Source of the DNA: a virus
Virus record (IMG/VR): IMGVR_UViG_3300009182_000153
Location: 1 to 37,667 of that record
Direction: 5' to 3' (one strand)
DNA length: 37,667 nucleotides
Part shown: positions 10,610-37,014 of the stretch, in pieces
How the letters are laid out: each line of letters starts with the position of its first letter
How positions within the stretch are numbered: the first letter of the stretch is position 1
The notes under the pieces: model-generated
What the model was told of the DNA's origin: nothing
Databases searched by the model: none
What the model saw: only the letters and a program-made list of their open reading frames with translations
Program-made: the position numbers and the translations under genes

Positions 10610-13600
10610 TTATTTATTTTTAAAAAACCAGGCCACTCGGCCAACAACACCAAATAAGGAATTAAATGTTGCTTGCAATGGTTTATAACTGTCACTGGTT
10701 CTATAGATAGCAGCCATTGTCTTATTGACAATACCAACATTCAATTTACCAAATAATTTGTTAAACAAATATGCACCATATACAACGTTCTTACCCTTTT
10801 CAGTGAACATAATCAACAATTCAGATGCTCTATCAGCAGTAATTTCTCCTGCTTCATATGCCAATCTAATTATACCACCATCATCAATGATAGATGTTGT
10901 ACCATAACCGTTTACTGTATATGTTCCATCACCATCGGTCCACAAATTGTAAACGATATCGCCTTTTGGTTCAGCAACATTAACGGGAATAAGTTTCTCA
11001 TTCTTATTTAACCATGGATACATTTCATAATTTAAATCTGGGTCAAGTGCATGTAATTTACCATCAATATACAATGGGTGATTTGCAGTTGCAAAAGATT
11101 CAAATTTATCGGATGGAGAATATAAGAGTTTAAAGTTTTCATCCGATATTTTTTCCACAAACATAACTTTGTTTGTAGATGTTCCATCAAAGTTCATAAC
11201 TTCTTCACCAACAGTTATCTTTGAAATCTTTTTCTTTTTGCCGTTGGCCATTGTAACCATTGTATCAGCAGTGAAACAACCACCACCACAACTACTATTA
11301 CTTGGTGGTGGTGGTGGTACATAAGTAGCAGTTGTAGTTGTTGATGATACCATAAATTTGGATGTAACCTGAATTGTTGCACCAACATAATAGTCATTAA
11401 CACTAGATGCTTGTTGGTCTAGTTTAATCTTTGTTACACCAGTGAACCATGCACCACCACCAGGTTGTAATATTTCTTGGTCTACACTATCATAGTTACA
11501 ATTAGGTGGATTAGTTGATTCAAATACAACAGCGCCAGCTGAATTTTTAACAAGAACAGCAATACCGTTTAATGGTAAAGATGCATTGCCTGTTACACTC
11601 CAAGAAATTGTATGTGTACCTTTTGTTAATGTTTTACTAAACACATCAACATTGGTTGGACCAGTTATTGTACCAATAGAAACACCATCAATGAATACAA
11701 GATTTGTTCCAGTTTTTGTTGAAGATATTTGAATTACATATGTATCAGCTGGAATAACACCAGTAGAAAATGATCCTGTGTATGCGGTAGAACTATATGT
11801 AGTAGTGCTACCCCATACACCATATTGATTTAAGAATGTACACCAATCATTTGGGTTTTGTACTTTATAAATTTGATATGTGCCTGAACCACCGACTGGA
11901 GTATAACTACCACCAACACCTGTTACTGAACCTGAAAGTAGAATAGAAGTTGTTGTGTCATTCAGTGTACCTGTACCTGTTGCTGAATTTGGTATGTATG
12001 TTCCTGTTGCATCAATTTTACCATTTTGAATTGTTTGTGATGAAATATATGGCACTGCACCTAAAACTGGTGCAACATACAAACGAACATTAGTTGAATT
12101 TGGATATTTGTATACAGAAGCTACACGAGCAGTTGGATAAAATCTAGCTGCTGATGAAAGATAGAAACCAATAATATCATCTTCTTTAAATGTACCGGTA
12201 ACATTCTTTAATTCTACTGTACTTGCTGGTTGAATATACTTGTCAACATTTTTTCCATCAAACCATGTAGAAACTGGTGTGTTAACCAACATACCTTTTG
12301 TTCTAACCAATAGTTGTTGTGGTCTAATGAAAGGTAATAAATGAACAGAATCATCAGTTGTTTTATTAACCAATGAATTAAAATCACCACTGTTGGTGTA
12401 ATTCAAGCCCTGTTGGTCTTGTCTCTGTTGTAATTTATCATCAGTAACCAAAATTGTTGGTGCTGTTCTAGTATCAACCCAATTGTCCATGGATGGACTT
12501 AATCTTGCAACACCTTGTGCTACAGATAGTGAGAATGGATTCAAACTCAATGTGCTTGTTGCCAAAGGTTGTACGATTGTATTTGCTTTGGTATATGGAA
12601 GTGTGAATACGTTTGTTTCAGTTCCATGGATACTAGAAATAGCAAACGTATTAGTATTTCTCAGAGTACCTAAACTGTTTAATACTATAGGATTTTGAAG
12701 TTGGAAATTGCTAACAAGTGTCAACGGTGTTAATGTTTTGTTTCTTGTGTTGATGTTTGCAAAGTAATCTTTGTTATAAGTATCAGCAGTCAAGTATGAT
12801 GAGAAGTCATCTACCAAAATACCATTTTTAAAACGATTCAGACCATTTACATCAGGCACTTGTAGTGATGCAGCCTTTTGTTCCAGTAGATTCAAAGCTT
12901 GGTAGTATTCAAGGTTGTTAACTCTTGTTTGTAGGTCAGTGATATCTTTTTTGATCCAACGTTTGTAGATAACTCTATCAATAGAAAGATTTGGTTTAGA
13001 TAGAGTTGTTTTTCCTGAGAACATTTCTTCACCAGGAATTATAGCTGTATATGGATCATGTGTAATATTTGCAACCACCAATGAACCATCTGGTTGGTCT
13101 GGTGCAATTGGTGTTGTTGATGGTGCACCTTCAATTATTTTAAAACTTCTATCTTTACTTAGAATCAGTTTATCTTTTCTACCCAAATAGTAAGCATAAT
13201 CATTTGTGAATTCGGATAGATTTGTTGGTATCAATGCACCTGCATCTGTGTTCACTGATAAGTCTAATGTGAAAGTAGACACACCATTTTTTCTAGTTGG
13301 TCTGAAGTCTAATGAATCGGATAACTTATATGTGGTACGACCTGAACTTGTGTAACTTGGAATGTCTGAGTATGTTTCAGGTGAAGTTGACACACCACCA
13401 CTAGATGCAGCCAAATAAGATAGTACACTAAAGTAACCATCACCACCTGAGTGTTGGTAATAATCAAAAACAAATAACAATTTGCCTAATGGTTTGTTTG
13501 CACCAGCCACCAAAGAAACTGTTGCATGGTCATAGTAACCATCTCTTTGTCCATTATCTAACCTGAAAAGGTTTGTAACATCATATGTAGATGATGCCAT

Positions 13601-15919
13601 CATAGCGTCTGTTACATGAGCTGATGCACTACCACTTGCAACAACCTTTGTTAATTTTTTAACATCTGAAACATACAAAGACATATTGCCTGTAGTTATA
13701 TCACCACCAGTAATATAAACTTGGCCTTTTGTTGTGTTAACGTAGGTATTATTAATCAATGTGCCACTTAATGCGGACATATTTGTTGTGTTACCAACTA
13801 AAAGATTTTTAGCCTTCAGAACATAGGATGTGCCATCCGCATTAGAAATAGAAACAGTTGCAATAACATCAACAGTTTTACCAGCATATGTAGCTGAAGT
13901 GAATGTTACTGAATCGCGGCCAGAAGTTACTACAACTGTATTTCCAGATGTGGTAAAATCTAATACTGTATTGCTTGACTTGTCAATAACAATATAATTT
14001 TGTTTGATTACATCAGAAGATAGTGTTCCTGTTCCTAAGAATCTTAATGGATTTCCACTACCAGAAGTCAAAGTGATTTGATACCCACCGCCAAATGTTT
14101 TACTTCTGAATACTCTTGTAGAGATGTAACTTGAGTCAGCAATGTTGGCAACATATGGATAACCAACTTGGAACAATAACTCAGGTGCATTTGATGTATA
14201 GAATACAGTATCTTCTAATGGTACTCCATTCTTTTTACCATTAAGTGTATTGATATTTGCTGAAGTAATTGGATAATATGTTGAGTTGGCAACAACAATA
14301 GATTCTACTTGTTTTGAATTGAATTGTATTGAGAAGTTTGTTGTTGCATCTGGTGTTAATGTAAATGCAGGGTCTACAACAATAGATTTTGTTGTTGAAT
14401 TATAGGAAGAAATTTTTCTGGAATCTCCAACACTTGTACCAGATGTAATTGTTACTATTGCACCATAGTAAGCATTGGCTGTTGTTGAAAACTTACCTGT
14501 CGTGTCGTAAACTACCAATGTATTGGCAGTAGAACTGCTTCTAGCATTTGATGTTAATGTGTTTGATGTTATGTCAGTAACATAAGATTTGTAAACATAT
14601 GTTTGTGTATTAGAATCCGATGTACTTGAAACATAACTTAGGTTTCTAATCTTTGTTTTACCAACCAATGTGGATTGATAAGTTGCTGCATTAGAACGAT
14701 TGATACTTTCTGGTCCTATACAGTGTAAATCCACAGTAGGTAATGTTGTATAGTCAAATGTACCTTTAAGAGTATCAACATAGAAATAGTTTCCATAATC
14801 AATAAAGGTTGAATTATTATTAATAAAATTAGTTGTTCTTGCACGATTACTTGTTAATAAAACATCGCCTTGATTTTCAATTCTATAACCACGAACATAG
14901 GCAATACCTTTACCTATTTTTAGGTCATATGTTGTTGAGTTGTTTGTGTTTGCAGCTGGTGTTAATTTGAAATCTTCAACGATGTAATCACCATTGGTTT
15001 CATAATCACGTTTTGCAAAGTAATCATCAATAACAGAGTAAACGGTACCATCAACTTGTTTAACAACAGAACCGTTTTGTACTTTTAATAATTCAATAAA
15101 TGCACCATCATTTCCTAACTCCAATGGAAGTGAAGTCAATGATAGAACAATTTGGTATCTGTCAGCACCTGGTGCTTGATAGTTTGAAGCACCAATAGCA
15201 GGATCCAATAGAGAAGAATCTGCAATATAATCTACAATACTTTCTGTTATAGAAAGACCAACTCTATATGATGGTGTATTGCTGTACTTGTCTAAAATAA
15301 CTGTCTGTGGTTGTACTGAAACAAAATTACCAATAGAATAATTTGAATATGTACCATCAGTATTTTGTGTGGCTGAAATAGAATGGCCATTTACAACATA
15401 GAAAACACCATTAGATATTGAGGCAGTAGAAGAAAGACCTGTACTTCCTGAAGTAATTGTTGTTGCAATAATATTAGGATTATCCACAACAGATACAACC
15501 ATATTATTGGTGAACTGAACACCTGATAGGTAAGAAACAATTAATGTTGGTGGATCGCCAGCTTGTGTATCAGTACCAGTCTTTTCAGCAGTTGCAATAA
15601 CCTTAGCGATAACTGTTCCTGATGTGTCTTGAATAATCTTGTTTAAGAAATTGCCAGCAACAACGTCAGAATTATTATATTTTAAATTTAATTTAAGGTA
15701 GTAACATTTAAAATTTGTTGATATTTTACCACCAGTAACTGGTGTATTTTGTGTGAAAATGTTGTCAGCAAATTTGGAAATCTGGTCTTGTAGGATTGTT
15801 TGAGATTGAGTCAGTTCTCTGGCCTGTACGGCCACACCAGGCTTAAACAATACACGATGGAAATTTTTTGACGGATCAAAATCATCGTAGTACGGATCAA
15901 CATTAAAATTTAGAGCCAT
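10610..15919 (-). CDS. Giant DUF4815 tail protein with C-terminal Hint domain
   Basis: 1769 residues, the longest gene in the window. The N-terminus (MALNFNVDPYYDDFDPSKNF, then HRVLFKPGVAVQARELTQSQ and ILQDQISKFADNIF) is the DUF4815 signature of large structural proteins of T4-like aquatic phages. A coiled-coil stretch (KKDITDLQTRVNNLEYYQALNLLEQKAASL) lies about two-thirds along. Near residue 1540 a proline run and a SCGGG linker lead into a Hint-type domain (residues 1548-1690) followed by a tail of about 80 residues. The gene is followed by the 735-residue protein whose module is often fused to DUF4815 proteins elsewhere. Likely function: baseplate periphery or long fibre base. The Hint domain suggests self-cleavage or covalent linkage. 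ATG has a plain upstream run of A with AAAAGGA. Confidence 0.85.
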   Translation of the reverse strand: MALNFNVDPYYDDFDPSKNFHRVLFKPGVAVQARELTQSQTILQDQISKFADNIFTQNTPVTGGKISTNFKCYYLKLNLKYNNSDVVAGNFLNKIIQDTSGTVIAKVIATAEKTGTDTQAGDPPTLIVSYLSGVQFTNNMVVSVVDNPNIIATTITSGSTGLSSTASISNGVFYVVNGHSISATQNTDGTYSNYSIGNFVSVQPQTVILDKYSNTPSYRVGLSITESIVDYIADSSLLDPAIGASNYQAPGADRYQIVLSLTSLPLELGNDGAFIELLKVQNGSVVKQVDGTVYSVIDDYFAKRDYETNGDYIVEDFKLTPAANTNNSTTYDLKIGKGIAYVRGYRIENQGDVLLTSNRARTTNFINNNSTFIDYGNYFYVDTLKGTFDYTTLPTVDLHCIGPESINRSNAATYQSTLVGKTKIRNLSYVSSTSDSNTQTYVYKSYVTDITSNTLTSNARSSSTANTLVVYDTTGKFSTTANAYYGAIVTITSGTSVGDSRKISSYNSTTKSIVVDPAFTLTPDATTNFSIQFNSKQVESIVVANSTYYPITSANINTLNGKKNGVPLEDTVFYTSNAPELLFQVGYPYVANIADSSYISTRVFRSKTFGGGYQITLTSGSGNPLRFLGTGTLSSDVIKQNYIVIDKSSNTVLDFTTSGNTVVVTSGRDSVTFTSATYAGKTVDVIATVSISNADGTSYVLKAKNLLVGNTTNMSALSGTLINNTYVNTTKGQVYITGGDITTGNMSLYVSDVKKLTKVVASGSASAHVTDAMMASSTYDVTNLFRLDNGQRDGYYDHATVSLVAGANKPLGKLLFVFDYYQHSGGDGYFSVLSYLAASSGGVSTSPETYSDIPSYTSSGRTTYKLSDSLDFRPTRKNGVSTFTLDLSVNTDAGALIPTNLSEFTNDYAYYLGRKDKLILSKDRSFKIIEGAPSTTPIAPDQPDGSLVVANITHDPYTAIIPGEEMFSGKTTLSKPNLSIDRVIYKRWIKKDITDLQTRVNNLEYYQALNLLEQKAASLQVPDVNGLNRFKNGILVDDFSSYLTADTYNKDYFANINTRNKTLTPLTLVSNFQLQNPIVLNSLGTLRNTNTFAISSIHGTETNVFTLPYTKANTIVQPLATSTLSLNPFSLSVAQGVARLSPSMDNWVDTRTAPTILVTDDKLQQRQDQQGLNYTNSGDFNSLVNKTTDDSVHLLPFIRPQQLLVRTKGMLVNTPVSTWFDGKNVDKYIQPASTVELKNVTGTFKEDDIIGFYLSSAARFYPTARVASVYKYPNSTNVRLYVAPVLGAVPYISSQTIQNGKIDATGTYIPNSATGTGTLNDTTTSILLSGSVTGVGGSYTPVGGSGTYQIYKVQNPNDWCTFLNQYGVWGSTTTYSSTAYTGSFSTGVIPADTYVIQISSTKTGTNLVFIDGVSIGTITGPTNVDVFSKTLTKGTHTISWSVTGNASLPLNGIAVLVKNSAGAVVFESTNPPNCNYDSVDQEILQPGGGAWFTGVTKIKLDQQASSVNDYYVGATIQVTSKFMVSSTTTTATYVPPPPPSNSSCGGGCFTADTMVTMANGKKKKISKITVGEEVMNFDGTSTNKVMFVEKISDENFKLLYSPSDKFESFATANHPLYIDGKLHALDPDLNYEMYPWLNKNEKLIPVNVAEPKGDIVYNLWTDGDGTYTVNGYGTTSIIDDGGIIRLAYEAGEITADRASELLIMFTEKGKNVVYGAYLFNKLFGKLNVGIVNKTMAAIYRTSDSYKPLQATFNSLFGVVGRVAWFFKNK
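10767..11278 (-). other. Hint (hedgehog/intein-type) domain in the DUF4815 protein
   Basis: Residues 1548 to about 1717. Block A is CFTADTMVTMANGKKKKISK followed by ITVGEEVMNFDG, with the candidate nucleophile Cys1548. Block B is FATANHPLYIDG, the T-x-x-H motif with its His. The C-terminal block is IVYNLWTDGDGTYTVNGYGT, the usual Y-N-L...TYxVNG strand pair, but it lacks the terminal His-Asn of splicing inteins. No endonuclease insert is present. This is the make-up of a non-splicing Hint or bacterial intein-like domain, capable in principle of N-to-S acyl shift and cleavage before Cys1548. Confidence 0.8.
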
Positions 15920-26841: not shown

Positions 26842-27741
26842 TTAAGGTCCTTTTGTATTGGCCGTTTTAGATGATGTAGATTGTGAGTTAACTTCTTCAG
26901 CTGAAGGTGTATTGTCAACTATGTATTGTTGTATTGCAACACTGTGGTCCTCTAGTGGTTGATTAAATGCTTGAGTAACTGCATCTGGAATAGAACTACT
27001 AGATTGAGATGTTGTCGCTGCATCTAAAGTTAATTTCGCTGCAGCCGTAAATTCGGAAGCAATACTGGTAATTTGTGTTTGCGTTAGACTTGTTATTTGG
27101 TCAGGTATAGACTTTATTTGTGTGGCAACTTGTTTTATGGAATTACCAAATTGTGTCAAACAATCCTTTAACATCTGTTGCAATTTGGCAGGTAATGATT
27201 TCACCCAATTGATTAGTTGTACGATTTGTTGAGCCAAAAATACCCATTCCAAAACAGATTCAACAATCATAGCAATTTTTTTAGTTATTGCATTAATCTG
27301 TCTGACAATTTTCTTCAACAAACTGAAATTAAAAGAAATAATTCCTGTTGCATCAAATCCTAGGCCAGTGATAACAGCATCCAGTACAGTTCTTAGACTT
27401 GAAATGATAGTCTGTATCATTGACCTTAGTCTATTTGTAGCTTTTAGTTTTGCATTTTTAATTGCATCTTGTATAGCTGCAACTGGACTTAGTAATCCAA
27501 GGTCACCAATTATAGATGACAAACTTGGAAAGATGAATTTAAAATCACAAACATGAGATAGATTACCATTCAACAAATCAATGATTGAACCTTTTACATA
27601 ACCTCTGGCCAGTCCAGGTGTTGTCTGAACTCCAGCTGTGTTGAGTAGTTGACCAAAAATTGAATTCGGTGGTGAATTCTCAACTATTTTGAAATTAATT
27701 ATACCAAATTCACCTAAATTTACTGTTGTATTTTCTGCCAT
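26842..27741 (-). CDS. Helical protein encoded between the two spike halves
   Basis: 299 residues. A short beta-like head (LGEFGIINFKIVENSPPNS) leads to a long, mostly helical region (about 75-245) with amphipathic stretches: AIQDAIKNAKLKATNRLRSM, LLKKIVRQINAITKKIAMIV, LNWVKSLP-type segments and GNSIKQVATQIKSIPDQITS. Some stretches are hydrophobic enough for membrane contact (SVLEWVFLAQQIVQLINWV). The C-terminal 50 residues are Ser/Thr/Gln-rich and probably disordered. No homologue was recognised. Its position between the OB-fold and needle genes suggests that it joins the spike or acts in its assembly, or fills the tail lumen above the spike. Confidence 0.55.
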   Translation of the reverse strand: MAENTTVNLGEFGIINFKIVENSPPNSIFGQLLNTAGVQTTPGLARGYVKGSIIDLLNGNLSHVCDFKFIFPSLSSIIGDLGLLSPVAAIQDAIKNAKLKATNRLRSMIQTIISSLRTVLDAVITGLGFDATGIISFNFSLLKKIVRQINAITKKIAMIVESVLEWVFLAQQIVQLINWVKSLPAKLQQMLKDCLTQFGNSIKQVATQIKSIPDQITSLTQTQITSIASEFTAAAKLTLDAATTSQSSSSIPDAVTQAFNQPLEDHSVAIQQYIVDNTPSAEEVNSQSTSSKTANTKGP

Positions 27742-32116: not shown

Positions 32117-32647
32117 ATGGCAGGTTTACAAAATTTCATACACAGTTTCACAACTGATTTGGCCAGACCAAATCGTTTTGATGTACTTTTGAATTTACCC
32201 GATGCATTGCTTGGTAGTACTGGAATACCATCAAATTATAAAGATGGAATGAGATATCGTTGTGAAGTGGCGCAATTACCAGGTAAAACCTTTGACACGG
32301 TAGAACAGAAAACATATGGTCCGATAGAAAAATTTCCTAATCTTGTTACATATACTGATATTGATTTGACATTTATTGTTGATGATACTATGGGTGTAAA
32401 GACTACGTTTGATATGTGGTTGACTTATATCAATTCAAGAACAACAAACAATTTTAAATATAAATCAGATTATGTCTCAGATATAAAAATTTATCAATAT
32501 AGTCTAGCAAATAAATTTACATATGGTGTGAATTTGATTAATGCTTATCCAATATCAATGAATCAAATGGATTTGGACTGGAGTTCGGATGGTTATCACA
32601 AATTAACTGTGACTTTTGCTTATACCTATTGGGAACAAGTGTATTAA
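32117..32647 (+). CDS. gp19: Tail tube protein, gp19-like
   Basis: 176 residues (T4 gp19 has 163). The pattern fits the T4 tube family: LARPNRFDVLLNLPDAL near the start, MRYRCEVAQLPGKTFDTVEQ, YGPIEKFPNLVTYTDIDLTF and IVDDTMGVKTTFDMWLTYIN, ending MNQMDLDWSSDGYHKLTVTF and AYTYWEQVY. Hexameric rings of this protein stack to form the DNA conduit inside the sheath. It precedes the gp26-like gene and the tape-measure-like genes, the usual tube-chaperone-tape order of long tails. A short gp54-type tube initiator is the alternative, since no other gp54 candidate is seen. Confidence 0.85.
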   Translation: MAGLQNFIHSFTTDLARPNRFDVLLNLPDALLGSTGIPSNYKDGMRYRCEVAQLPGKTFDTVEQKTYGPIEKFPNLVTYTDIDLTFIVDDTMGVKTTFDMWLTYINSRTTNNFKYKSDYVSDIKIYQYSLANKFTYGVNLINAYPISMNQMDLDWSSDGYHKLTVTFAYTYWEQVY

Positions 32648-32668: not shown

Positions 32669-33394
32669 ATGGCTTTACCAAAAATTGATGTGCCAACATA
32701 TGAAATTGAATTACCACTTTCTAAAAAGAAAATCAGATATCGTCCATTTCTAGTTAAAGAACAAAGAAACTTATTGATGGCCATGGAATCTAGCGAATCT
32801 AGTTCTGTACATGATTCCATTAGAGACATTCTTCATAATTGTACTTTGACAGAAGATATTGATATTGACAAATTGCCAATTATTGATATTGAATATTACT
32901 TTATTAACCTGAGAGCTAAATCTGTTGGTGAAGTAGTCGAATCAAAGTATCGTTGCAATAATGAGGTCGATGGCCAAGAATGTAACAACATTATGGAACA
33001 TAACATTAATTTGTTGAATATTAAAGTAGGTATGGATAATACAATATCACCAGAAATTCAACTGACCGATAAACTTTCTATCAAAATGAAATATCCAGAA
33101 TTTGGTATCATTAAAGATTCTGTCAATATTATCAATGAAACGGAACTTACATTCAATATGTTGGCCCGTAGTATTGAATACATTTATGATGGCGAACAAT
33201 TTTATTATGCAAATGAAACACCAATTTCAGAGTTGATAGAATTTGTTGAAAATTTAAATCAAACACAGTTTGAAAAGATTGAGAATTTTTTTAACAATCT
33301 ACCAAAGATGAAAGAGAAAATTGAAATGACTTGTAGTAAATGTGGTTTTCACCATTCATTTAAATTAGAAGGACTTGAAAGTTTTTTCGTATAA
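32669..33394 (+). CDS. gp26: gp26-like baseplate/tail assembly protein
   Basis: 241 residues in the zero frame (T4 gp26 has 208). The start VPTYEIELPLSKKKIRYRPF, then LVKEQRNLLMAMES and IIDIEYYFINLRAKSVGEVV, is the T4 gp26 family signature (T4 baseplate assembly protein). Four cysteines form two pairs, Cys96/Cys105 and Cys222-x-x-Cys225 (CSKCGFHH), and could bind zinc. It has a strong ribosome binding site, AAGGAG. The last codons AGT TTT TTC GTA TAA include a TTTTTTC slippery site leading into an overlapping -1 frame; see the next two entries. Placed between tube and tape measure genes, it fits a tape measure chaperone as well as the classical hub-assembly role. Confidence 0.88.
   Translation: MALPKIDVPTYEIELPLSKKKIRYRPFLVKEQRNLLMAMESSESSSVHDSIRDILHNCTLTEDIDIDKLPIIDIEYYFINLRAKSVGEVVESKYRCNNEVDGQECNNIMEHNINLLNIKVGMDNTISPEIQLTDKLSIKMKYPEFGIIKDSVNIINETELTFNMLARSIEYIYDGEQFYYANETPISELIEFVENLNQTQFEKIENFFNNLPKMKEKIEMTCSKCGFHHSFKLEGLESFFV
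33369..33388 (+). promoter_or_regulatory. Candidate programmed -1 ribosomal frameshift site
   Basis: The zero frame reads T TTT TTC at 33382-33388, a fitting X-XXY-YYZ heptamer, two codons before the TAA stop. An internal Shine-Dalgarno-like AAGGA lies at 33369-33373, 8 bases upstream, as at dnaX-type sites where it promotes backward slipping. A 7-bp inverted repeat (33414-33420 with 33434-33440) lies 25 bases downstream, probably too far to matter. After slipping, the -1 frame stays open to 33576. Confidence 0.7.
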
Positions 33395-33576
33395 CCTTTC
33401 GCCATGACAATTTGAGAAATCATTATAAAACAAATTTCTCGTTGATGCAACATCATAAGTATAGTTTGACTGAATTGGACAATATGATGCCATGGGAAAG
33501 GGACATATACATTGCGATGTTAGTCCAATATATTGAGCAGGAAAACCAAAGAATAAAAGAGAGAATAAAGAAATAA
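33382..33576 (+). CDS. -1 frame extension of the gp26-like protein (tail assembly chaperone C-terminal part)
   Basis: Open from a TGA at 33376-33378 to the TAA at 33574-33576, with no ATG near its beginning. Translated from the slip site it adds 62 residues after Phe240, giving a 302-residue fusion. The extension reads RITFRHDNLRNHYKTNFSLM, QHHKYSLTELDNMMPWERDI, then YIAMLVQYIEQENQRIKERI. It is coherent, amphipathic and protein-like, with the (M/L)xPWERxIYxxML type motif of small phage assembly factors, and it fills the whole space to the next gene. An internal ATG (33445) would give only 43 residues and has no Shine-Dalgarno. T4 has gene 51 here (26-51), so this may be the gp51 counterpart, or a lambda GT-like extension. 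Confidence 0.7.
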   Translation, partial: FFRITFRHDNLRNHYKTNFSLMQHHKYSLTELDNMMPWERDIYIAMLVQYIEQENQRIKERIKK

Positions 33577-33577
33577 A

Positions 33578-35314
33578 ATGGCAGAACCAGCAGTAGAGAC
33601 AAAAGATACCGTTAAAAAATTATCCTTTGGTGGTGTTGGCAAGTCTTTACTCGGCGGTGCCAAAAAATCCGTAATTAAAACTGTTGATTTTTTACATAAA
33701 AAGTTTGGTTCGACCAAACACATTGATGAAGGTAAAAAACTATCAAATACGGAATGTCTTGGTGAAATCTACAAGATGATGAAAATTATGGATGAGGATA
33801 AAAAACTTCGCCGTGAAATTGCTATTAATAATTCGGAACAAGAACAACATGAAAAAGACCAAAGAAATAAAGAAATAATATCCGCTTTAACTGGTAAAAA
33901 ATTTAAGAAAACTAAATTTAAACCTAAAAGGAAAATTAAAACCAAAAAGAAAGTTAAAGCAACAAAAATTTCTGAATCTGCCGGCTTTTCTCTTGGTGAC
34001 CTTGGTACTATAACTTTAGGCACTGCTGCTGTCATTGGTACTGGTGCGTTAATGACTGCACCAACATCTGCTTTTGCGAATACTATGAAAATGGAACAAG
34101 GCGCTAAAAGCCGTGAAGAAGCTTTAAAGAAAGCTCATAAATCAGTAAAAGATAGAGATAATTCTCTATCTTATGGTGTCATTAGTCTATCATCAATAAG
34201 AACAGAAGGCAAAGATAATTCAAGTTTAGATTCATTTATCAAAGATAATCCACAATTTAAACTTCCTGATCCTGGCCAAGGCGGAAAAAATCCAAATTTT
34301 ATAGAACAATGGAATAAAATTCCATCTGAAGAATTGCTTGATGCTCAAGAGAAATGGTATCAAACTCATGTTTTTAATCCAGCAACAAGATTACTAGAAT
34401 CTTCAGGTGTGGATCCTAAAATATCTTCTGATGAAAGAGTTCGTGCTTTTATGGCAGACAGAGGAAACCAAGTTGGTACAGCTGGTTCCGAAAAAGCAAT
34501 TAAAAAATCCAAAGCCAATGAAGCAAAAACACCAGAAGAATTTATAGATAAAATGACTGAATATGATGTAGCTAATGTAGAAGAACAATTTCCAAAATAC
34601 TTAGCACAATATCCAGACCGCAAAGATGCTTTAATTAGAAGAATGATTAATAGAAAAAATCTTTCTCTTAAAATTGAAAGTAAAGGTGCAACCAGTTCCA
34701 ATATTACAATAAAACCACCCGCTTTACCAACTCATCATACACCAGAACAGGATGCAAAACAAGACAAAACAATTGTAGTTCAAGAAAATAAAAATACATC
34801 AACAGATGATGAACTTGAAAAACAAAGGTTAAAATACGAAAAAGATTTTGAAAATTTTGTAGATATGGGTTTAGATACCAAACAACCACCCGTTGTATCG
34901 AAACCACAATTGTGGAAATCCATGACTTCTCTGTATGAAAATGACAACATCTTATACACAGAACAGGAAAAATTATATGTAGAAAGACAAAAACAAAAAC
35001 TTGCAGAAGTTTATGGTTTTAAAAGTTGGGCTGAATATGAAAGAGTTTCGGAAGAAAGAATTGCAAAAAGACATGAAATTTTAGATGCACAACAAAGAGA
35101 ATATGAAGAAAATCAAAGAAAAATTCAGGAAAAATTATTAGAATCTGTAAATAATACCACAAATATTAGTACAATTGTGCAAGAGTCAACGGAAATAAAA
35201 AAAGAAACTGGTAATGAAGTGCCTTTATTGATATTGAAAATGGAAGAAATTACTAATAAATTAAAGGTACCTCTAGAAGAAGGAATATACAGTCCGTATA
35301 TCTATAATGAATAA
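33578..35314 (+). CDS. Tape-measure/hub-like protein with a candidate wall-degrading domain
   Basis: 578 residues, close to T4 gp29 tape measure (590). Domains: an N-terminal Gly-rich basic part (KKLSFGGVGKSLLGGAKKSV), a charged helix (about 55-105), a very basic Lys run (105-130), a hydrophobic Gly/Ala/Thr stretch (139-161) and a globular part at about 170-366. The latter shows MEQG (Glu173), LSYGVISLSS (198-206), DSFIKDNPQF, FIEQWNKIPSEELLDAQEKW, YQTHVFNPATRLLESSGVD and TPEEFIDKMTEYD, a plan like the VgrG-related/tail muramidase domains that read SYGxYQxSS...FI...HY.P. The rest is coiled coil and Gln/Lys-rich. Together with the next gene it probably forms the tail core that sets length and opens the cell wall. 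The catalytic claim is inference. Confidence 0.65.
   Translation: MAEPAVETKDTVKKLSFGGVGKSLLGGAKKSVIKTVDFLHKKFGSTKHIDEGKKLSNTECLGEIYKMMKIMDEDKKLRREIAINNSEQEQHEKDQRNKEIISALTGKKFKKTKFKPKRKIKTKKKVKATKISESAGFSLGDLGTITLGTAAVIGTGALMTAPTSAFANTMKMEQGAKSREEALKKAHKSVKDRDNSLSYGVISLSSIRTEGKDNSSLDSFIKDNPQFKLPDPGQGGKNPNFIEQWNKIPSEELLDAQEKWYQTHVFNPATRLLESSGVDPKISSDERVRAFMADRGNQVGTAGSEKAIKKSKANEAKTPEEFIDKMTEYDVANVEEQFPKYLAQYPDRKDALIRRMINRKNLSLKIESKGATSSNITIKPPALPTHHTPEQDAKQDKTIVVQENKNTSTDDELEKQRLKYEKDFENFVDMGLDTKQPPVVSKPQLWKSMTSLYENDNILYTEQEKLYVERQKQKLAEVYGFKSWAEYERVSEERIAKRHEILDAQQREYEENQRKIQEKLLESVNNTTNISTIVQESTEIKKETGNEVPLLILKMEEITNKLKVPLEEGIYSPYIYNE
34085..34675 (+). other. Candidate peptidoglycan-degrading (VgrG-related type) domain
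   Basis: Residues about 170-366 of the first tape-measure-like protein. Glu173 in KMEQG stands where a catalytic Glu (E-S-G-G type) stands in related domains; SYGVISLSS matches the SYGxYQxSS loop; AQEKWYQTHVFNPATRLLESSGVD matches the helix-HYxP-G-D part; ISSDERVRAFMADRGNQVG resembles the following RSxAVxDVxxSTAVQHG helix. Recognition is by remembered pattern only. Confidence 0.45.
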
Positions 35315-35325
35315 GAGAACTAAAA

Positions 35326-37014
35326 ATGGATAATAAGTTAAACTACCAACAAGCCAGAAGTGTAAGGTCTCAATCACTTAAAGATGTGATTGCTGATGAA
35401 TTGATTCGTGGTAAAGGTTTAGGATCTTCTATCACAGGTGCTATAAGTCTGAAAACACAAGCCAGAATGAAAGGAATCAAAGAAAAATTTGATCCACTTA
35501 ATATTATTAAGTTTTTGACATTTGGTTCTCGTTTAGGTCCTGCTTTGTATGGCAAACTCTTTGGTCGTTCACAAAAAGATATTGAATATTTTGCTGGTCG
35601 TGCAAAACCAATTGGTCGTGGTAAACAAAAACTGGTTAAAGATAGAACAGATGATGGTGATGAAGATACCAGTGGAATGAAAACAGTACTGAATCAGATG
35701 CTTACTTTTATGAAAAAAAGCCGTGAAGATGATTTATTGATGTATGAAAAAGAAAATAATCTAAAAGAAAGTAATAAATTACATGAAGAAAAAAGACACA
35801 AAGATTTATTAAAAGCATTAGGTGCAAGAACTACTGAAGTACCTACAGCCACTATTGAAAAACCAAAAGAAGATAATGGATTTTTAAATGGATTGATGGA
35901 TTCTATCAAAAAATTGATTGAAGGCATGGAAGCAAAGATAAGAGATGTTATAGAATCTGTAAAAAATATTTCTAAAATGTTAGGTAGTATAAACAATATT
36001 GCTAAACTAATTCAAAATGTTGCTTGGTTACTACGAGTAGTAAGAACGCCGACAATATTGTTTCTTGCTGGTCTGGCGTTGTTTGAATTCGACAAATGGG
36101 TATCTAAAAAAGTAGATGATGCTATGGATGTTGCTGAAAAAGAAGCAATTGAACGTGGCGATGTTACATCATTACGAAAACATTTGGAAAATAGAAATAA
36201 GAAAAATCTTGATAAAGCTGCTCGAACTGGTGATGCGCTGGATGCTGGAGTGTATACCGATCCAATGACTATAGGTAATATAATGGTAAATCCAGCTGAA
36301 ATAAGAAAAAAAACAAAAGAATCATTTGAATTTGCCGCCAAAACAGAAACGGATCAATTAAAAAGACAAAAGGCTATTAATGCTTTACAAGAAATTGAAG
36401 CTGATACACAAAGTAGGAAATTGGAGTATTTGAAAAAAAATAATATTGATGTTAAATCAGCAACACCTCAACAATTGCAGGCCGCACAAGATTATGCTGA
36501 TGAGAAAATTGATATAAAAGGACTTCCTACTTGGGTAAAACCAGCAATACCAGCAAAAGTAGTTACTCCATTAAGTAAAACAGATAAAGAAACTCTAACA
36601 ACTGTACAAGATATTCCTGCTAACTTTTGGAAATGGTACCAACAACCAGACGCAACAGCAAATACAGAAGATGCGAAGATGTATCAAAAAATGTCTAAGG
36701 TGATTGCAGATAATCCACTTGGACCTTGGGAATTTGACAAAAAAATTCCTGGTTATAATGAATGGAATAGAACAGTACCTAAACCTATGCCTGCGGCCGG
36801 TAAACAAAGTTCTCTAAATGATTTGATACAGGATAATATAGATTTAAAATTAATTGACAGTACTTCTTCAATTCAAAAGAATAAAGCAGCACAAGAGAAA
36901 ATTAATTCGGCAAGTACCAAAGTTGCATCAAGTCAAAGTATTCCTATGCCACTTTCAAGGAATCAAGATTCCACTTATAACAGAATGTTGTATAATTCCA
37001 TTAGGGTCGTATAA
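35326..37014 (+). CDS. Second tape-measure/hub-like protein
   Basis: 562 residues. Layout parallels the preceding protein: a basic N-terminal part (ARSVRSQSLKDVIADELIRG, LNIIKFLTFGSRLGPALYGK), a long charged helix (about 118-165: VLNQMLTFMKKSREDDLLMY, EKENNLKESNKLHEEKRHKD, LLKALG), then an amphipathic helix and a hydrophobic segment at about 230-254 (NVAWLLRVVRTPTILFLAGL). The C-terminal half has helical parts with ATPQQLQAAQDYADEKIDIK, and low-complexity linkers. No catalytic motif was found. Long helices plus a membrane-like segment suit a tape measure that is ejected ahead of the DNA and enters the inner membrane. It ends 3 bases before the A-tract of the terminator hairpin. Spacing from the upstream gene is 11 bases. 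Confidence 0.65.
   Translation: MDNKLNYQQARSVRSQSLKDVIADELIRGKGLGSSITGAISLKTQARMKGIKEKFDPLNIIKFLTFGSRLGPALYGKLFGRSQKDIEYFAGRAKPIGRGKQKLVKDRTDDGDEDTSGMKTVLNQMLTFMKKSREDDLLMYEKENNLKESNKLHEEKRHKDLLKALGARTTEVPTATIEKPKEDNGFLNGLMDSIKKLIEGMEAKIRDVIESVKNISKMLGSINNIAKLIQNVAWLLRVVRTPTILFLAGLALFEFDKWVSKKVDDAMDVAEKEAIERGDVTSLRKHLENRNKKNLDKAARTGDALDAGVYTDPMTIGNIMVNPAEIRKKTKESFEFAAKTETDQLKRQKAINALQEIEADTQSRKLEYLKKNNIDVKSATPQQLQAAQDYADEKIDIKGLPTWVKPAIPAKVVTPLSKTDKETLTTVQDIPANFWKWYQQPDATANTEDAKMYQKMSKVIADNPLGPWEFDKKIPGYNEWNRTVPKPMPAAGKQSSLNDLIQDNIDLKLIDSTSSIQKNKAAQEKINSASTKVASSQSIPMPLSRNQDSTYNRMLYNSIRVV

Follow-up and report, generated by a model that had tools for sequence, protein, structure and literature searches.

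The window, by which we mean the whole 37,667-nucleotide stretch of viral DNA that was analyzed (IMG/VR record IMGVR_UViG_3300009182_000153), carries a tail tube protein gene followed by a gp26-type gene, a -1-frame extension of the latter, and two long open reading frames (ORFs), all arranged on the same strand (Table 1). An earlier note, made from the letters of this DNA, had proposed that a -1 frameshift near the end of the gp26-type gene fuses its product to the extension, and the features on which it relied were readily located. From position 33368, the zero-frame codons of the window read GAA GGA CTT GAA AGT TTT TTC GTA TAA, which includes both the proposed heptamer T TTT TTC, in the zero frame and separated from the stop by a single sense codon (GTA), and the AAGGA run described as lying 8 bases 5' of it. 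From position 33388, the -1 frame translates as RITFRHDNLRNHYKTNFSLMQHHKYSLTELDNMMPWERDIYIAMLVQYIEQENQRIKERIKK and ends with a stop at 33574-33576, while the next ATG (33578) is two bases on, exactly as expected from the claim of an open 62-codon frame filling the gap to the next gene. The extension also contains a TTG (33412) and an ATG (33445).

Table 1. Features of the gp26-type locus and its neighbors, with positions in the window
Feature	Position	Strand	Basis or remark
Tail tube protein gene, upstream of the gp26-type gene	32117..32647	+	PHROG_45, E=2e-37
gp26-type gene, short tail assembly chaperone (TAC-N), 241 aa	32669..33394	+	PF12322, PHROG_150, AlphaFold2 model
Internal control T TTT TTT (Phe-Phe) inside the gp26-type gene	33286..33292	+	-1 frame open for just 2 codons
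AAGGA purine run resembling a Shine-Dalgarno sequence, 8 nt before the heptamer; may act as a stimulator	33369..33373	+	
Slippery heptamer T TTT TTC, zero frame	33382..33388	+	conservation in relatives
Zero-frame TAA stop of the short product	33392..33394	+	sequence
-1-frame extension, 62 residues + stop (TAC-C, the C-terminal domain of T4 gp51)	33388..33576	+	PHROG_634
Predicted long product, 302 aa	join(32669..33388, 33388..33576)	+	
Downstream ORF 1, 578 aa, tape-measure candidate	33578..35314	+	position only
Downstream ORF 2, 562 aa, hydrophobic segment, tape-measure candidate	35326..37014	+	position only

The gp26-type protein matched the PF12322 T4_baseplate profile with 197 bits against a cut-off of 24.5 (E=4e-58) and PHROG_150 with E=1e-64, and its AlphaFold2 model had a pLDDT of 86. 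Judging from these profile matches, the gene is a homologue of T4 gene 26. The extension matched PHROG_634, 'baseplate hub assembly catalyst' (gp51), with E=2e-27, as well as the C-terminal end of PHROG_150 and, weakly, that of PHROG_23772 (E=0.011), which suggests that some database proteins have the extension in frame. A tblastn search found it in 577 phage records, mostly cyanophages, with the others including KVP40-type Vibrio, Aeromonas, Sinorhizobium, Caulobacter, and Pseudomonas phages. The locus had also been placed between the tube gene and two tape-measure-like genes. The first of these neighbors was confirmed by its PHROG_45 match, while the latter two are tape-measure candidates by position only. 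Neither downstream ORF had a significant PHROG or Pfam family match, the first having weak coiled-coil-type Pfam matches below the cut-off, and phmmer detected no similarity of either ORF to T4 gp29 or the corresponding genes of relatives. The second ORF had no solved-structure match. Each of the two encodes one hydrophobic stretch. Elsewhere in the window, the minus strand encodes a 299-residue protein (26842-27741) that weakly matches tape-measure PHROGs (E about 1e-5), perhaps through coiled-coil similarity alone. The same strand carries, within the baseplate region, a very long ORF (10610-15919, 1769 aa).

Conservation of the slippery site

The sequence TTTTTTY is not rare in this A+T-rich window, as it was found 37 times compared with 55 expected occurrences. 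Only three of these are in frame within predicted genes, and the site at 33382 is the lone example that adjoins the stop of its own gene and opens a long new frame. It is the conservation of the heptamer, rather than its mere presence, that goes beyond chance. The earlier note had proposed checking related gp26 loci for a conserved heptamer and a missing start in the -1 frame, and our comparison set comprised 215 fetched relatives plus the window (216 records). The extension was absent from the gp26 locus of two of these, T4 and Aes012, and was in the -1 frame in all of the others (214/214). The heptamer, in the form T TTT TTY/G, was kept in 194 of these 214 (T TTT TTC in 189, T TTT TTT in 4, and T TTT TTG in 1), while the 20 without it were Ackermannviridae and Vibrio phage D503. 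Among the nearest IMG/VR relatives, 80 out of 80 had AGT or AAT (NNT) followed by TTT TTC, a GNN codon, and then the stop. In one relative (L194), 3 sense codons, rather than 1, separate the heptamer from the gp26 stop, and the -1 extension is kept; this junction looks as if the stop moved while the slip site stayed. A split gene of this kind could in principle also arise through an assembly error or a recent frameshift mutation, and T4-type gp51 is indeed an in-frame, full-length version. However, the same junction is present in >190 contigs and isolate genomes from several families, so the relatives refute this explanation and we regard its probability as negligible.

Conservation was also assessed using a codon-usage null, which takes the protein as given together with each phage's own codon usage and tests the T that precedes the first Phe codon as well as the TTT. 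This yielded a log10 P of -8.0 for 13 clusters at 50% identity and -22 for 53 clusters at 80%, the latter figure being overstated because the null treats clusters as independent. The GC-rich phages PhiW-14, pf16, RL2RES, and phiN3 all kept the heptamer even though TTT constitutes just 16-29% of their Phe codons. Among 63 distinct genes of the window lineage, neither Phe codon of the heptamer varied, whereas nine other conserved Phe columns all did. The Phe codons of the control T TTT TTT at 33286 were variable in relatives as well (TTT27/TTC36 and TTT55/TTC8). The site, with its 6 or 7 consecutive T, might alternatively support transcriptional slippage, in which case the fusion would already exist in the mRNA. 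Polymerase slippage generally needs runs longer than T6-T7, and the other T run in the gp26-type gene is not conserved. At the slip site, the run keeps its T6-T7 length and its zero-frame phasing over tandem Phe codons, mostly with a terminal C, all of which fits slippage of tandem tRNAs; a transcriptional origin of the fusion is accordingly extremely improbable.

The extension as coding sequence

Among 60 distinct relatives, the -1 frame had no stops over 60 codons in every case (60/60), compared to 3-12 stops in the other frames, and 65% of the differences fell at codon position 3 of the -1 frame. The identity of the -1-frame protein was 0.52 ahead of the slip and rose to 0.88 directly past it. 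By these measures, the extension is a genuine coding domain. It might nonetheless be a separate small gene (gp51) having its own or a coupled start just past the gp26 stop, which is how most GenBank records annotate it (~56-58 aa in cyanophages and Vibrio phages, starting just past gp26). KVP40-type phages, Cr30, phiN3, and PhiW-14 have TAATG or TGATG overlaps that would suit such a gene, and an in-frame ATG is present ≤30 nt past the gp26 stop in 22 of 57 clusters, where independent or coupled initiation is possible. However, there is no ATG just past the gp26 stop in the window or in 35 of the 57 clusters, and the phages with an ATG keep the heptamer too, except for D503 and LIMEstone-type Ackermannviridae. 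Moreover, the cyanophage ATG sits in or beside the 5' arm of a hairpin, and conservation of the extension starts at the slip, upstream of any start. In the 60 relatives, the position of the window TTG (+20) was TTG in 19 and CTG, TTA, or CTA in 41, which amounts to replacement in two thirds of them, and the first ATG was 18-32 codons into the extension. Initiation at the window ATG (33445) would lose the conserved first 19 residues. An upstream start also has no room in nearly all of the window lineage, where the -1 frame meets a stop 16-37 nt 5' of the gp26 stop. The claim of a missing start was therefore upheld in that relatives have no conserved start before codon 18, though it was too strict for the window itself, given the TTG and ATG found there. 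The variable TTG, late ATG, and upstream -1 stop together make independent initiation unlikely in the window lineage, and we consider a separate gp51 gene to be a very improbable explanation of the locus.

Possible stimulatory elements and a variant junction

Many cyanophages have a strong hairpin that starts ~6-10 nt 3' of the heptamer. The hairpin z was -9.2 for S-PM2, -3.5 for P-SSM2, and -4.3 for Cr30, and it fell below -2 in 24 of 57 clusters. The stem sequence and register of the cyanophage hairpins differ between clades. Relatives with a hairpin include L082, L083, L143, L120, L147, and L096, and the ATG annotated for gp51 in several cyanophages falls in or beside the 5' arm. The window lineage has neither a stable hairpin 3' of the heptamer (z -0.65) nor a consensus structure downstream of it, and any stimulator there is therefore uncertain. 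The cyanophage hairpins and their absence from the window lineage are possibly unreported. We also considered AAGGA as a required element, which was not convincing. It is absent in some relatives (e.g., TCG GGA, TCT GGA, or GTG GGA) and is lost when the Glu is replaced, indicating that the run is largely dictated by conserved Glu-Gly codons.

In the Ackermannviridae and D503 (L090, L199-L216, L095, and L227), the -1 extension is kept but, of the two Phe codons in the heptamer, just the second is left. The variant junctions read GAR ATT TTC AT[T/C] TAA, CAC GTT TTT CGC TAATG, and TCA CTT TTC AAG TAATG, several of them having TAATG where others have TAATT, while that of Vi01 (Ackermannviridae) is GAAATTTTCATTTAA. 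With a single Phe codon left and TAATG in several junctions, either reinitiation or P-site slippage of a single tRNA is possible in these phages. This half-heptamer variant is possibly unreported.

Discussion

The frameshift observation made in the earlier note is strongly supported by these results, and a programmed -1 frameshift that yields a short (gp26) and a long (gp26 plus gp51 domain) tail assembly chaperone is, on the comparative sequence evidence, very probably the correct reading of the locus. The sequences establish the arrangement, its conservation, the coding character of the extension, and the gp26/gp51 homology, from which the slippage itself, its efficiency, and the binding partners of the products are set apart as inferred. 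Most ribosomes would terminate at the gp26 TAA (33392) and release the 241-residue short form. On T TTT TTC, a minority would shift by -1, both tRNA-Phe pairing anew with TTT TTT, and would then translate 62 further codons to complete the 302-residue long form. If lambda gpG/gpGT is a guide, the N-terminal part common to both forms may bind the tape measure protein, while the -1-encoded domain may recruit tail tube subunits. We also tentatively suggest that the signal could be modular and vary by lineage, with a heptamer and hairpin in cyanophages, a heptamer and Shine-Dalgarno-like run in the window lineage, a second Phe codon with P-site slippage or reinitiation in the Ackermannviridae, and gene duplication in T4.

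Frameshifting is reportedly conserved in several T4-like groups, with T4 said to use genes 26 and 51, according to the abstract of Vladimirov 2022. A 2016 recoding review described the G-T frameshift as widely conserved 'except T4' (PMC5009743). As relayed by later papers, Vladimirov, Gautam and Davidson (2022) reported that some T4-like phages have a short gene and a fused long gene with no frameshifting (PMC10885494), and the same study is cited for poly-T frameshift signals in the TAC-N genes of T4-like phages (PMC12846349). The equivalence with lambda G/GT that had been proposed for the window agrees with published work (via PMC10885494 and PMC12846349), and the arrangement is not new; a frameshifted chaperone in T4-like phages is already described there, and the window is an environmental addition. 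We found no open-access papers on cyanophage gp26/gp51 frameshifting. With the window, an abundant environmental T4-like lineage would join the phages having frameshifted tail chaperones, and many of the 'gp51' genes or gaps in database records of cyanophages and Vibrio, Caulobacter, and Sinorhizobium phages are more likely to be the second half of a frameshift product.

Comparison with known systems

The earlier note had suggested that gp51 may be made by frameshifting in this lineage, and the end-to-end alignment of T4 gp51 with the predicted fusion supports this view. Using hhalign, the T4-type gp51 profile was colinear with the fusion profile along its entire length (probability 99.8, E=1.6e-29), whereas T4 gp26 matched only the N part of the fusion (E=1.6e-34). 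The gp51 and T4 gp26 alignment itself had E=9e-21. AlphaFold2 models of the window gp26 and T4-type gp51 were largely alike in the order of their elements, apart from additional helices at the C-terminus of gp51, and the gp51 model retrieved gp26-type proteins from a viral structure library. On these alignments, T4 gp26 is the short form, resembling that of the window, and T4 gp51 is an in-frame long form resembling the whole fusion, with two genes replacing the frameshift. T4 differs in having two genes on opposite strands, as does Aes012, as well as in having no slippery site (T4 gp26 ends GAG TTC TTT GAG). The long form in T4-like phages without the 26/51 pair would come from frameshifting. 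T4 is a clear natural case of recoding replaced by a duplicated gene pair, a conclusion that is already published.

The slip site of lambda G/GT is GGGAAAG, as opposed to TTTTTTC in the window. Among the few highest-probability Foldseek matches of the window gp26 model was the HK97 chaperone 2ob9 (HK97 gp13), at E=1.7 and a probability of 0.38, and no significant sequence or fold similarity to lambda-type chaperones was evident. Likewise, no significant solved-structure relative was found for gp26 by sequence or for T4-type gp51 by fold. The two systems are alike in having a short and a frameshift-extended form, a shift close to where the first gene ends, and a location adjoining the tail tube gene (PMC5009743). 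The chaperones of Vandenendeviridae and Andersonviridae similarly use a -1 shift on a T-rich site, with an extension annotated as a separate gene or left intergenic, though their motif is the shorter GTTTTT and they belong to other phage families (PMC12846349).
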